A stretch of DNA of 64,000 nucleotides from Adineta ricciae. Taxonomy: Eukaryota; Rotifera; Eurotatoria; Adinetida; Adinetidae. The DNA lies in the NCBI GenBank assembly GCA_905250025.1, contig CAJNOJ010000005.1:186001-250000 (forward strand), read 5' to 3'. The notes beneath the pieces were generated by a model that was given only the letters and a program-made list of their open reading frames with translations, was not told the DNA's origin and searched no databases. Position 1 is the stretch's first letter. Each line of letters begins with the position of its first letter. Below, piece after piece: positions 40,232-61,174 of this stretch. The position numbers and the translations under genes were made by a program.

Positions 40232-42310
40232 ATGGCAGCTGCCAATTCTGATCAAACTCAATGGCACATATTTACCTGTGACGAACAAGAATTCAGAGTA
40301 CCTATTCGATATCAAGATCCGAAAAAAATCGGACACGGTGCTTTCGGTGCTGTAGTGTAAGTACTTATATCCTCTTTGATTTTTCTATGAATACGTTCTT
40401 TGTCTAGTCAAATGACAGATACGGTATGAAAAATTACCGTTAAGATCACGAAATAAATATCACGGTATAATGAACTAGGTCACTGGCAAAAGTGTTGCTA
40501 TTAAAAGGTTAATTCAGCCATTTCGAGGCACAGAACATGCAAAACGAGCTTATCGCGAACTCAAATTACTCATGCATCTAAACCATCCTGGTGTGCATGT
40601 ACGTAAATGCTGACTTTCTATTAATGCTTTTTACATGGATGTGTATTATTTGTGAATATAGATTGTACGATTACTCAACGTTTTCACACCTGATAATAAG
40701 TTACGCGAATTTCAAACTTTGTATGTTTGTTTATAAGGAAGTTTATCACCTATTGAGAGCAGTAATTGTTTAGTTATTTGGTGATGAAATATGCCGGTGT
40801 TGATTTGAATCGTATTATTCGAAAACATAAATTCACTGAAGATCATATCAAACAGATCATTTATTCGATACTTCGTGCTTTGAAAGTAGGAGTTTTCTAT
40901 GGAATACGAACGATTTTGTTGTTTTTCAATTTCAGTTCGCACATTCAGCTGAAATCCTTCACCGTGTAAGAATTTTTTTTCAAATATAGGCAGGAAATTA
41001 TAATATGCTTTCAATATTTTAAATAGGATTTGAAACCATCAAATATTGGAATCGATGAAGATTCGAATCTCACGGTGAGTAGAAAGAGTATACACCTGCT
41101 TTTACTCGCTTTTGACACTTTCCTCGATTTATTCAATTAACTCTGATACATTTCAAGAGTTTTCATAAAATATTATTCAAATTACAAAACGAATGTTGTC
41201 GAGTGCACATGCAAACAAAAATATGAATAGTGTTTGTTTTTGATAGATTCTTGATTTTGGCTTAGGACGTGTTGCAGCCGACGGAGATCAAACCGGTTAT
41301 GTTCAAACAAGGTATACGATTCATCGTTTATAAGAAATATAATATTGAATTTGTTAGATGGTGGCGTGCACCGGATGTATATGCGAATTGGCAGAGATAT
41401 GATGATAAATTGGATACATGGTCTGTTGGTTGTATAATGGGCGAGTTGATTCTACGTAAACCAATTTTTCCTGGAACAGATCAAACCGATCATTTGAAGA
41501 AGATATTTGAAATGATCGGTACACCTGATATGTCAACACTAAAGGAAATTTGCACACCAGGTTCGTAGATGATGTGCAGACCAATTCTAGGTTTTAAAGG
41601 CTTTGAGAGGAATAATCTTGGATTGGGAATATTCGAGAGAAGTTCATAAGAATAAGAGAATACCTGTTGATTATAGTTTCTAAATTTATCGATGTAATAT
41701 TAGAGTTTGAAGAACTATGTAACATTCGCATTGCTATGAAAAATATTCGTTAGATGTTGCAGAATTTATCTCACAAATGCCGCGACAAGTCGGAAAAAAT
41801 CTCAATGAACTGTTTGGCTACAAATATGCTGCAGAAAATCCTCAACCAATATCCGGCATTTCACCAGTAGGTGTCGATCTTCTCAGACATCTTCTAACGT
41901 TCAATCATCTTGATCGGCCAACTGCTGCAGAAGCATTAGGTAAAATTAGTTTTCCAGACAGCAGTTCAAGTGATGTGATCAATTTTGTAAAAATGCTTTT
42001 GTCTGTATAGCTCATCCATTTCTGGCTGACTTTCATGATCCTATGGATGAACCAACTCTAAACCCACTGGTTGATGAACATCAAAATGCACGTCACAATG
42101 TTGAAAATTGGAAAAGTAAATGTAACATACTTTATTCGTCTATGAGCGATTGTTATAGCAATTTAGTAGAATGAGTGTAGTGATTTTAGTTATCGATTGT
42201 TTAATACGTTTGATGTCATTTTAGGTATTATCTGGGAACTAATTCAACGGTTTGAGGAACCCGTAGTAGTCGATGACGATGATGACGACGATATGGATGA
42301 CGATTCATAA
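40232..42310 (+). CDS. p38: p38-type MAP kinase, catalytically complete
   Basis: Twelve exons: 40232-40356, 40409-40424, 40479-40598, 40662-40720, 40774-40885, 40936-40965, 41027-41074, 41247-41311, 41358-41560, 41754-41939, 42011-42115 and 42225-42310. They give 384 residues. The Gly loop is GHGAFG (34-39), the ATP Lys K56 in VAIKR, and HRDLKPSN (153-160, split between exons 6 and 7). DFG is 173-175, and the activation motif T-G-Y is 186-188, diagnostic of p38, followed by TRWWRAPD. The common docking motif reads HDPMDEP. p38 kinases relay osmotic, oxidative and other stress signals. Unusual points are a 16-base second exon, G in place of A in DFGLGR, W for Y in RWWRAP, and an Asp-rich C-terminal tail. 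It is followed 0.6 kb downstream by a degenerate paralogue. Confidence 0.93.
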
Positions 42311-42916
42311 AACAGAACATAGATTACAAGATAACTAAGAAAAAAGACTCTCATCTGTGGTGTGTCTCCTTTATATCTTCACAGATCTATTACTTTTGAC
42401 TACATCAATATGTGATCGCTGTTTTTGTTTTCGTTGTATCACGAAGCTTTTAGTTAAATAGTAGCTTTTGAAATGTTGCCACTTTCTGCATGTGAATTTT
42501 TGCGTATATGTATGAAATCTTTAAGAAAATATTCTATCAACGATTGCACACATAACATACAATTAGATTTCAAAGACCGAATTCATATGAAAGAAACATA
42601 AAAAGAGGATTAAACGATTAATCCGACTTTTCTACTGAATTGCTGACGAAATATCACTTTCTATATACTTCAATAAAAAATATCATAAAAAGATGAATCA
42701 CTATAAAGCATATCATTCCTGTTTAGCTCGTTATGATTGCTTTCGTTTATCGCTACTATCGATCATTATATGTATATATCTCTCTCTCTCATCTAGTCTT
42801 AACCAATAGGTGAGAATCATCATTTGATTGTATTTTATGTTTGTATACAATCGTTCTCACATAAACTCAATCACGTTCGACAGGATTTCTTTTTATCATT
42901 GAGAATAGATATCAAT
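42311..42916. other. spacer between the two p38-like genes
   Basis: AT-rich, with no exon. A frame runs in phase upstream of the next gene's ATG from 42824. The downstream start at 42917 is preferred because it aligns with the start of the first kinase and gives a first exon of identical length. Confidence 0.5.
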
Positions 42917-44757
42917 ATGACTGCAGTAATCGAAAATCAAGGACAGTGGTATACGACAATTTCTAACAACGAGACATTTACATTACCTATACGATATCAA
43001 GATGCACATGTTACCGGAAAAGGAGCGTTTAGTATTGTTCTGTAAGTTCAAATATATTTTCCTCTTCTCTTTTGATCGTCTTTATACTTTAGTCAAGCAG
43101 TAGATACAGTACGAATGATAATATCTAGGGTTAGCAATGACTATCAATGTACTCTCATTTAGAAAACAGGTAAATACGTAGCTATTAAAAAGGTGAGAGA
43201 ACCTTTCAGAGATGTAATGCACGCAAAACGAGCGTACCGTGAATTAAAACTTCTTTTGGATTTCAATTATCCGGATACACAAGTATGCATTCTCAACTAT
43301 CATCTTACTTGCGAATAGCCATTTTCGATCATTGTAGGTAGTGCAACTATACAATGTCTTTACACCAGAACGAGATGTGAATAATTTTCAGACTTTGTAT
43401 GACTTATGAAAGGAAATTTGATTAGATGATGCATCATTCTATGTGAATACCTTGTAGGTACTTTGTTCTGAATTACATTGATTATGATCTGCACGAAGCT
43501 ATTCAGTGTACGACATTCACTGAAGAACATATCAAATTAGTGATATATCAATTACTTCGTGGTTTAAAAGTATTTTCGTTTGTCATCAGTAGCGATTCGC
43601 AGTATATTAGATGTTTTATTTTTATTTTAGCTTATCCATTCAGCGGGAATTGTTCACTATGTAATTCTGATATAGAAAAATGTAAATATCAGTTGATCAA
43701 TGTTTTTTGTTTGAAATAGGGTCTGACACCGCAAAATGTTAGGATAGACAGGTGTGGAAATGTCTCAGTAAGTGTTACAATCATCAAAGTATGCAGAGAA
43801 ATCTTCAATCAACATCGTCCCTATTAATATTGTTAAGATGCACTTTCATACTCTATTACTTATATTTAGATTACTACCAATTTTGTCGCTAATTTTCCAT
43901 TCAATGACAACAGTGCTTTCAATATTCCCTCTAGGTATATTAAGAAATCGATTTTGACTTGTCGTATTAAACACAATCTCTTTGATTAGATCTTGGGACG
44001 CACCAGAGATACTTACAAATCCAGCGCAATGTAGTAGCAAAGTAGACATATGGTCTGTTGGTGCCATCATGGCTGAATTGATCTTACATCAACCACTTTT
44101 CTGTGGAGCAGATCATATGGATTATTTAAATCAAATCATTGATGTTCTTGGTACACCTGATCCAACAAAAATAGACGAAATATGCATACCAGGTTTGTAG
44201 ATAACATTCAAACTAGACTTGTGAAAACATTTTTTCAGATGCAGCGTCGTACATCAAACAAATTCCAGCTCATCCACCACAAGATTTGAATAATCTATTC
44301 GGTTTCAAATACGTTGCAGAAAATCCGCAACCAGTATCCGGTGTTTCACCGATGAGTATCGATCTTCTCAAGCGTCTTTTAACTTTTGATCATCGTGACC
44401 GTCCAACTGCCGCTGAATCACTGGGTAAGCGAACTTTCAATACTGCGATTCAGTTGATGTAGTTAACTTATCGCAAATTTCGTTTTTTTTTGCATAGCTC
44501 ATCCATTTCTGACTGACTATCATGATCCTATGGATGAACCGACTTTACATCCAATAGTTGATCAACACCAAAACGCAGAATACAGCGTAGAGGAATGGAA
44601 AAGTAAGTGCATAGAACGATTCCGACTTGTTCATTAAAGTCTAGTTAATAGTTTAAATCTGAATGAAATATGTCCTTGAATTTCAGAAATCATCTGGCAA
44701 TTAATTCAAGATTTTGTTATACCATCTTGGGCTAACGAAAGCATTCACGATGATTGA
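42917..44757 (+). CDS. p38-like pseudokinase, tandem paralogue with lost catalytic motifs
   Basis: Twelve exons: 42917-43041, 43093-43108, 43163-43282, 43338-43396, 43458-43569, 43631-43660, 43720-43767, 43870-43934, 43990-44192, 44239-44424, 44498-44602 and 44687-44757. The first eleven have exactly the lengths of the neighbouring p38 gene (125, 16, 120, 59, 112, 30, 48, 65, 203, 186 and 105 bases), and the frame is open for 379 residues. The ATP Lys (VAIKK, K56), the helix-C Glu (YRELK), APE and the docking motif HDPMDEP persist. However, HRD has become H-Y-G (153-155), DLKPSN has become GLTPQN, DFG at 173-175 has become T-N-F, T-G-Y at 186-188 has become A-F-N, and the third glycine of the Gly loop is Ser. 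Phosphotransfer and activation by TGY phosphorylation should both be impossible. The intact frame and splice sites argue for a maintained protein, perhaps a decoy or scaffold for p38 partners. Confidence 0.88.
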
Positions 44758-45968
44758 GACGAATATATAAACTCATAGATAGTTTTCAAAAATAATAAAC
44801 AACATCGCGGCATTGTACTCGTCTTCCTCTGCGTATTCCTGAACTTCTGTTCGTAGGTAACAAAAACTCTCTAATATGAATAAATGAATACAGATAAAAT
44901 CGATATAAAAATATGTTTTCAATGAGATTTCTATCTAAATGAATCGAACGGTTCACAGTTTTCATAAGCGACAAAGATTGTATCTCTTGTTGAATATCAT
45001 CGTACATATTGCCAAGTTCTTGTTGAAACATCTATATCTATGATCGGTTCATCATTGTAACAAAAAAAAATCATTATTCAGTCATACAGAGGGTTATATT
45101 AATATTCAAATAAAATGCATCCAGCTAGTCTCCAGATGCGAATGTATATATTCAGTCAAACAATACGACAGTAGAATAAAAGAAATAAATCATCAAGGCT
45201 GAACAAATCAAACATGAACCTAAGACAGCAAGTTCAAACCAGAAATGTACTCTAATAACAATAAACAACCCGAATTCGACAGAGGGAATGTTTCTCCACA
45301 TGATAATCGATACAAAAAAGTAAATCGCTGAGATTATTTCTTGCAACTCAAGTTGTTTTCTCAACAATGTACTCTTCTAATCTAATTATACAATCAAACC
45401 AAAGGCGTCACACACTCTTGAGAGAAATTCGTCTAACGATCTTTCAACAATGAATCTTATGTCCTTATGCCTTATTTATGAATCATATGATAATATTGTT
45501 CAACTTCAGTTCTTTCTTTAAGATATTGATTGATTCGTACTGAAAGGAACAAGCGTCTTTGATAAGTCAGTTGTTTCCAATGATCGGAACTCTGGTGAGT
45601 GTCAAACAAACATAAACTAACTAACGATTTTCATGTTCTCTCATACGTAGATAATTTCTCACGAAAGAAACCCACGCAATCTTGATGAGTCGGTGCTCTT
45701 TCATCTACTTCTCAAAGTCTCAATTATACAACATGTTTGAACTTGCATAAAATTCCTCATATTTAATTCCAGTCAATGATTTGTCACGGTAAGGTTGTTG
45801 TTGTTTTTTTTTTGTTGGGGAATTTTTATTATGATCGTGATTAGATATATACACTGATTTAGACCAAAGTTGAGCTCATCAAAAAAGAAATCATGTTAAT
45901 GTTCATTCTCTTTTCAGTTCAATCAGGATGTTGACATTCCGTTTCTGTTCTTTGCCCTTTCGTGTCTC
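44758..45968. other. intergenic, no firmly supported gene
   Basis: Contains minus-strand frames at 44786-45031 (Gln/Glu-rich start) and 45152-45367 (two hydrophobic segments, no ATG) that might be pieces of a small spliced gene. I could not join them in phase. Confidence 0.4.
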
Positions 45969-46290
45969 TTAAAACAATTGGCGATAAGGTGGAGGTGTAA
46001 TCTAAAGCAAAAAAAAAACAAACGATTCGATTGCTTTTTCCGACAAATAAGTTTCGCCTTACTTCATCTTCTCGAATATTAAGTCGCCGAGCAAGATCTA
46101 GCAGTGTTGATGTATCTAGTAAGACATTACTGAATCGATGTTCATATTCGACAGGATTAACATGAGGAACAAATGTTTTTGTGTATTGTCGTTCGACTAC
46201 GACTTTCGGTTGATCATAGACGATGATAATTGTCGGAGGTTTACGATATCCTTCTTGTACACGTTGAGGATTCGGCTTAGAATTGTTCAT
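45969..46290 (-). CDS. 86-residue orphan protein, two exons
   Basis: Exon 1 (46290-46063, 76 codons) starts MNNSKPNPQRVQEG. It contains a compact block PPTIIIVYDQPKVVVERQYT, then HVNPVEYEHRFSNVLLDTST and LLDLARRLNIREDE. A GTAAGG donor and a TGCTTTAG acceptor join it in phase 0 to a 33-base exon (46001-45969) encoding ITPPPYRQLF and the stop. No signal peptide or membrane segment is present from this start. Using the upstream ATG at 46320 adds a short hydrophobic MKLIFAMVV stretch. A TATA box sits about 80 bases upstream. The composition is balanced and the short last exon is clean, so the gene is probably real. I do not recognise the family. Confidence 0.65.
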
Positions 46291-59747: not shown

Positions 59748-61174
59748 CTTTTCACAGAATAGTTTCGGTCGTCGTTGAATAAGATCTAAATAAAAAGTTA
59801 TCTGTTGATACAGAGTCAAGGAGAGAAATGTTCGAGTCTTTGAAATACACGAAAAAATCTCTTAGATCAATTAATTCATTTGTTCATAAATCGATCGGCA
59901 AATAGAATTCGAAATGATGCAAAGAAATTCGATTGTCAATATCTTATTGTGAACCGAGCAGCTCAAGATGCGCATATTTGAACGATAGAACGAAAGTCTT
60001 TCTACAACTCAATAAATGATGAGATTATTTCAGAAGCATGTGTCACAATCAATAAACAAAGAAATCTATTATTTCTCTACAGTATATTCATAACTTGACT
60101 CATCCGTCGATCTACGTCATTGATCCATTAGAATAATAAATAAATATCTCAACTTATTACAATCATAAAGTGATCTCGATATTGAAATTATCATTTCCAA
60201 AGTACTGTTTGTCAGGGGTCGAACTATTTCTTGCGTGAACTTAATCAAGATAATATTTCCTCAAACAGACGTCATTCGATAGTTTAATTAAAATTTGCTT
60301 ATATAAATAATTTAGGCAGGAGACTCATGTAAATATATTTGTTGCTGATTATCAACATTCTTCGGTGTAAAACTTGTCAAAAAGAAATGTATTCACTTGT
60401 CACAGTCTACATTGATTAATCAATTGGGAAAACAATCCATTATTTTCCATATTTGCCTTTCGATGTTGTTCTCTCTAAGTCTGCGTCATAATTACCTTCG
60501 AAATAGCGTTTCCCATTCATATCCTGTGGTGTAATTAGAATTTTTTCTCAGCATAGCATGCTATCAAAAAAGTAGATGAAGGGTATGGAGCGAATCAAAC
60601 GGGGATCAAATAACAACCTAGATGAAGTCAATAGTCATGATTTTTCTTTCCACTAAATAAATATATATATATATATATATATAAATATCTTAAAAGTCAA
60701 GCGGATGAGTGCATCGTATGACAATAATTTAAATTGAGGCGCGGTTCAATGCTCTGATTACATTCCATGTAGACACCGTTCACTTCAAGTCAAAGATCAA
60801 GAAAAACGTTTATGGGAGCGCGATGATTACATGACTGGTTGATATTTCAAAGAGGGAGCCTGGAGAGCGAGTTCTCGGTGATATCTTTAATGCATTGAGT
60901 CAAGCTTGGAAATCAAGTTTTTCTTTTTTCATACAGTTTAAACTGAAAAGAAACATGAGGCACATTTGGGAATGGTTTGATCGTCTTTTATTTATGACTT
61001 CGAATGACATCTGTTTGCCGAACAGCCAAAAAGTAACCGGAATTGAAAAGCAAAAACTGAATGAGTATGAGAGAATTAAAGAGGTAGAGAAAAATAAACT
61101 GAATATGAGTGATAAAGAATATACACCGTAATTCGCGACTACTGGGTAAATCTGATGTTGTAAAGTGACTCGTT
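59748..61174. other. 1.4-kb intergenic stretch, no gene seen
   Basis: AT-rich, with one AT microsatellite. A plus-strand frame near 60,860-61,130 carries a short segment (LGDIFNALSQAW) faintly like the acidic half of the upstream secreted modules, but no splice signals or G-K-R support a decayed copy. Confidence 0.45.
60661..60683. repeat. (AT)n microsatellite
   Basis: Twenty-three bases of uninterrupted AT alternation in a gene-free stretch. Confidence 0.95.

Follow-up and report, generated by a model that had tools for sequence, protein, structure and literature searches.

A p38-family pseudokinase gene under purifying selection beside an active-looking p38 paralogue in the rotifer Adineta ricciae

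The window analysed here, a stretch of 64,000 nucleotides (C5:186001-250000) from a 130-Mb assembly of 1033 contigs, contains at 42917..44757 on the plus strand a gene of the p38 MAP kinase family which has lost its catalytic and activation signatures, has been under purifying selection since that loss and is maintained as a functional gene. The evidence supports its reading as a p38-family pseudokinase and not as a decaying pseudogene. A MAP kinase of this kind would represent a natural separation-of-function p38, useful for distinguishing the catalytic from the docking roles of the family, and a homologous copy on contig C2 supplies a test of selection within the same genome.

Gene model and genomic setting

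The spliced model of the pseudokinase comprises 12 exons encoding 379 amino acids and closes with a TGA stop codon at 44755-44757. Exons 1-4 occupy 42917-43041, 43093-43108, 43163-43282 and 43338-43396 (125, 16, 120 and 59 nt), exons 5-8 are located at 43458-43569, 43631-43660, 43720-43767 and 43870-43934 (112, 30, 48 and 65 nt), and exons 9-12 at 43990-44192, 44239-44424, 44498-44602 and 44687-44757 (203, 186, 105 and 71 nt). All 11 introns are GT-AG, likewise in the C2 copy, as counted with an aligner that permits only GT/GC-AG introns. A tandem, active-looking p38 paralogue, hereafter the neighbour, lies at 40232..42310 on the same strand with 12 exons, 384 amino acids and intact HRD, DFG and TGY motifs. 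Exons 1-11 of the two genes are identical in length and agree in all 11 phases, and the last exon measures 71 nt in the pseudokinase against 86 nt in the neighbour. The model thus bears out the first-pass annotation, which had described an open frame of 12 exons with intact splice sites and neighbour-matching exons 1-11. Exon 2 (43093..43108) is a microexon of 16 nt, as in the neighbour, where its counterpart was found at 40408-40423; the same length of 16 nt occurs in 7/7 compared p38 models of this genome. The neighbour has an acidic C-terminal tail rich in Asp (VVVDDDDDDDMDDDS, 42263-42307), which the pseudokinase does not have.

The Pfam kinase profile PF00069 matches the pseudokinase with an E value of 5.9e-42 and the neighbour with 3.3e-57. 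In a PDB search, for which a 373-residue draft lacking exon 2 was the query, the best 60 of 1551 matches were all p38beta or p38alpha. Homology to human MAPK11 and MAPK14 extends over the whole length (best E 7.1e-72 among the matches listed; 38% identity to the MAPK11 chain), apart from an insertion of 12 residues relative to that chain which is common to the other p38s of the same genome. Relatives were also sought in viral contigs, where three pattern matches were obtained, none of them a relative.

Contig C2 carries a region homologous to the window locus, with both p38 genes in conserved order and 91% identity over about 9.9 kb. A third and more distant region on C32 features a single p38 near a gene which we take to be topoisomerase-like and whose protein identity amounts to 100% on C5, 98% on C2 and 83% on C32. 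The gene on the opposite flank, presumably OTU-like, is present on C5 and C2 and was not found on C32. This arrangement of three regions looks like the degenerate tetraploidy that is a feature of bdelloids. Directly upstream of the pseudokinase, a splice-acceptor-like sequence (TTTCTTTTTATCATTGAGAATAG) at 42886-42908 ends 8 nt before the ATG, and its last 21 nt also occur in the C2 copy; the site could receive a spliced leader or mark the end of an intron in the 5' UTR. A 23-nt query, which we take to be the bdelloid spliced leader, had no exact match in the assembly and 44 matches at up to two mismatches (41 with one, three with two); its reversed form, taken as control, gave none. These matches make a bdelloid host likely, although they do not prove it.

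Catalytic and docking motifs

The loss of motifs is concentrated in the catalytic loop and the activation segment. At the HRD site (43655..43722, plus strand, as for all motifs given here), the end of exon 6 and the start of exon 7 encode H-Y and G on either side of intron 6, identically in the C2 copy, and the catalytic loop HRDLKPSN accordingly reads HYGLTPQN (R154Y, D155G, K157T, numbered as in the pseudokinase). The DFG site (43876..43884, residues 173-175) is T-N-F in the window copy and T-D-F in the C2 copy, and the activation motif TGY (43915..43923, residues 186-188) is A-F-N and A-C-N, respectively. Retained features are the ATP-binding Lys56 of VAIK (43187..43189), the helix-C Glu74 within YREL (43241..43243), APE at residues 196-198 and the common-docking (CD) motif HDPMDEP at residues 330-336 (44521..44541). 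Gly34 and Gly36 of the P-loop are kept as well, and its third Gly is a Ser. The pseudokinase thus shares the two P-loop glycines, the VAIK Lys, the helix-C Glu, APE and the CD motif with canonical p38s and differs from them in HRD, the catalytic-loop Lys, DFG and TGY. As regards HRD, DFG, TGY, the ATP Lys, the helix-C Glu, APE and HDPMDEP, this pattern had already been reported in the first-pass annotation, with which the motif alignment agrees.

With regard to the loss among the VAIK Lys, the HRD Asp and the DFG Asp by which a pseudokinase is recognized, both copies have Gly in place of the HRD Asp; the window copy moreover has no Asp at the DFG site, and the VAIK Lys remains. Of the features typical of the p38 family, the CD motif is present and both TGY and the acidic ED pair are absent, the latter being Arg-Cys in the window copy and Lys-Cys in the C2 copy. 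Human MAPK11 and the neighbour both have the ED pair, which is missing from the C32 gene despite its HRD, DFG and TGY. Among 101 residues constant in six active p38s (five from this genome and the human MAPK11 chain), 78 are retained in the window copy and 77 in the C2 copy. As many as 16 of the 23 losses of the window copy fall within the 24 invariant positions at residues 151-197 (hypergeometric p 6e-8), and none affects the 12 invariant positions at residues 100-150. An alternative exon that would restore HRD, DFG or TGY, the possibility of which had been raised at the outset, did not emerge when 42311-46000 was scanned in six frames for similarity to four active-site peptides, in ungapped 12-residue windows; the scan recovered exons 6-7 of the gene itself and some weak matches, of which the highest-scoring (28) was on the minus strand.

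The DFG site differs between the copies, as TNFV in the window stands against TDFV on C2, and its alignment can be drawn in two ways. If a one-codon insertion ahead of the Asp and a deletion of the Gly codon are allowed, exon 8 of the C2 copy matches the active-looking C5b gene at 36/62 bases, compared with 30/65 without this indel pair; the shifted and unshifted alignments give 33 and 29 matches to C32, and 33 and 26 to C2AC. Codon shuffles attained 36 matches to C5b in 0/500 cases, which is neither a strict test nor proof of a shift, since shuffling also destroys ordinary homology. As the alignment with the indel pair matches more bases, the site may be read as D-F with the Gly lost in the C2 copy and as N-F in the window copy. 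On this alignment, the C2 copy may still bear the metal-binding Asp, and the window copy an Asn in its place.

These residues bear on the idea that the protein acts as an atypical or nucleotide-binding switch, which would bind ATP or have weak activity by means of Lys56, Glu74 and a displaced Asp. The kept Lys and Glu, together with Asp174 of the C2 copy at the shifted DFG-like place, may leave room for nucleotide binding; nevertheless, Gly has replaced the HRD Asp and Thr the catalytic-loop Lys, and the displaced site of the window copy is occupied by Asn. EphA10 and STK40, two comparisons for such sites, belong to other kinase groups and are not known to be CD-motif-bearing MAP kinases. EphA10, with HRG at the HRD site, and STK40, whose DFG site reads TNF, resemble the pseudokinase; the former is thought to lack phosphotransfer, and the latter does not bind nucleotides (PMC7586955). 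A point in favour of the switch comes from Drosophila p38c, likewise a p38 paralogue whose activation motif is altered (TDH in place of TGY). It was once proposed not to be activatable and yet phosphorylated ATF2 in vitro, and its authors prefer a kinase over a scaffold role (PMC4177744). Because p38c did so with TDH, the loss of TGY alone proves little; unlike p38c, the pseudokinase has also lost HRD and has an altered DFG site. Altogether, a nucleotide switch appears quite improbable.

Selection and possible function

Selection was tested by comparing the pseudokinase copy of the window (C5) with the one on C2 within one assembly, the losses being common to both. The pair showed an omega of 0.272 (dN 0.039, dS 0.142; LRT 24.9 against omega 1), similar to the value of 0.249 (LRT 29.8) for the active-looking C5b/C2b pair and below that of 0.484 (LRT 8.2) for the neighbour pair. 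The 64 changed codons comprise 31 nonsynonymous (N) and 33 synonymous (S) ones, whereas neutral simulations of 67 substitutions, in which stops were scored as nonsynonymous, gave a mean of 44.0 N and reached so few N in one of 2000 runs. Exons of the two copies are 94.1% identical and introns 90.2%. Since omega is 0.27 and neutrality is rejected, decay of a pseudogene is unlikely, as the first-pass annotation had proposed.

A recently decaying pseudogene would nonetheless account for the missing catalytic residues and for the near-neutral ratios in the relaxed-looking exons 1-2 (7 N:4 S) and exon 10 (9 N:4 S). Moreover, the lack of stops is weak evidence when taken alone, because 210 of the 2000 neutral simulations were stop-free as well. 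Still, neither copy contains a frameshift or stop although 2/11 introns differ in length, and the low omega and the single simulation with so few N speak against decay, which is therefore rated as very improbable.

Constraint is most pronounced in exons 4-7 (43338..43767, plus strand; residues ~88-170), where 1 N:10 S changed codons separate the window copy from the C2 copy. In structural terms, this block presumably spans the hinge, alphaD, alphaE, the catalytic loop and beta7-beta8, and thereby the alphaD-alphaE and beta7-beta8 parts of what we take to be the p38 docking groove. The remainder of exons 1-11 shows 30 N:23 S (Fisher p 0.006, or about 0.025 after multiplication by four blocks, the block having been picked post hoc). 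The same contrast is absent in two active pairs (7:7 against 39:22, p 0.37; 4:5 against 25:26, p 1.0).

The account to which we lean, with slightly better than even confidence, is that the pseudokinase would modulate p38 signalling through docking and without catalysis. A paralogue of the p38 MAP kinases would have arisen, probably by tandem duplication, and would have been retained as a non-catalytic protein after loss of the HRD base, the catalytic-loop Lys, DFG and the TGY phosphoacceptors. As the acidic CD motif and the alphaD-alphaE stretch are kept, it would occupy the D-motif partners of p38, i.e., upstream MAP2K, downstream MAPKAP-type kinases and phosphatases; while bound, it would neither become activated nor phosphorylate anything, and such occupancy would thus tune the three active-looking p38 loci. 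That the protein is expressed, folds and binds partners, and in which direction it acts, we infer from the sequence. The first-pass annotation had called it docking-competent, which is partly indicated by the CD motif and the alphaD-alphaE stretch and not by the acidic ED pair, whose replacement by Arg-Cys or Lys-Cys could weaken D-motif docking. A link to desiccation, also suggested there, is speculation.

Several working modes are described for known pseudokinases (PMC7586955), and the protein might, instead of being a docking decoy, use surfaces outside the D-motif groove to act on a partner allosterically or by dimerisation, or to serve as an assembly platform. The lost ED pair fits such a role, as does the conservation of the C-terminal region as well, exon 12 being identical to the C2 copy at 71/71 nt. 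However, N:S is lowest in exons 4-7, which presumably cover part of the docking groove, and the gene has kept its CD motif, so that a role of this type is an unlikely though serious candidate. STRAD and the TRIB pseudokinases work in this allosteric or platform manner, and the latter are not known to derive from a MAP kinase. TRIB pseudokinases tune MAPK signalling through binding, as is proposed for the pseudokinase described here, and provide a scaffold for an E3 ligase (PMC7586955).

No report of a p38 or MAPK pseudokinase was found in the literature searched; as this search used a few phrases and mostly excluded subscription journals, earlier reports may exist. Hits for rotifers and pseudokinases concerned, by title, other proteins (MLKL, venus kinase receptors, DNA-PK).

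Other p38 loci and descent

Besides the neighbour, an active-looking pair with HRD, DFG and TGY is located on the minus strands of C5 (C5b, locus L031, C5:706579-704540) and C2 (C2b, locus L032, C2:495221-493190). Its docking site reads HLPTGEP against HDPMDEP in the pseudokinase, i.e., the acidic motif is lost. It is conceivable, if rather unlikely, that bdelloid p38 paralogues split the jobs of a MAP kinase, in that the pseudokinase would provide docking and the C5b/C2b pair catalysis without the acidic motif; if true, stress signalling would be tuned by these genes jointly, as a natural split-function p38 module.

The neighbour had been regarded as the active parent of the pseudokinase, which the comparison of all loci disfavours. 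Protein identity between the pseudokinase and the neighbour is 50%, hardly other than the 51% between the pseudokinase and C32, and the neighbour is 64% identical to C5b/C2b. In a full-length tree calculated without the degraded copy on C137, which places the pseudokinase among the p38s of this genome and apart from JNK and ERK, the neighbour and C5b/C2b form one clade (99.6/100) beside the pseudokinase, and C32, human MAPK11, JNK and ERK are split from these genes (96.5/96). Inclusion of C137, which joins the C32 side, lowers the latter split to 81.4/74. Both the identities and the full-length tree suggest that the neighbour is a paralogue of the pseudokinase and not its parent.

Trees of single blocks conflict with each other. 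Exons 1-8 join the pseudokinase with the C137 copy (89.2/87), exons 3-7 do not settle how C32, C137 and the pseudokinase branch (4.9/32), and exon 9 also resolves little. Exons 9-12 set C32, C137 and the outgroups apart from the pseudokinase, the neighbour and C5b/C2b (96.7/93), and exons 10-12 pair the neighbour with the pseudokinase, not with C5b/C2b (80.2/74). The pseudokinase is closest to the neighbour in exon 11, with 80% nucleotide identity and a pS of 0.44 against 0.53-0.84 in six other blocks. Limited gene conversion near the 3' end may possibly have taken place.

The p38-like copy on C137 (locus L033, G000; C137:61123-59664, minus strand) lacks exons 1-2 and part of exon 3, and the frames upstream of it resemble what we take to be a nucleoside hydrolase. 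It reads HRN for HRD, has Lys in place of the helix-C Glu and has lost TGY; an extra intron splits its 186-nt exon into 117 and 69 nt, and a single N occurs at 61142. This copy may be another dead p38, or else a relic.
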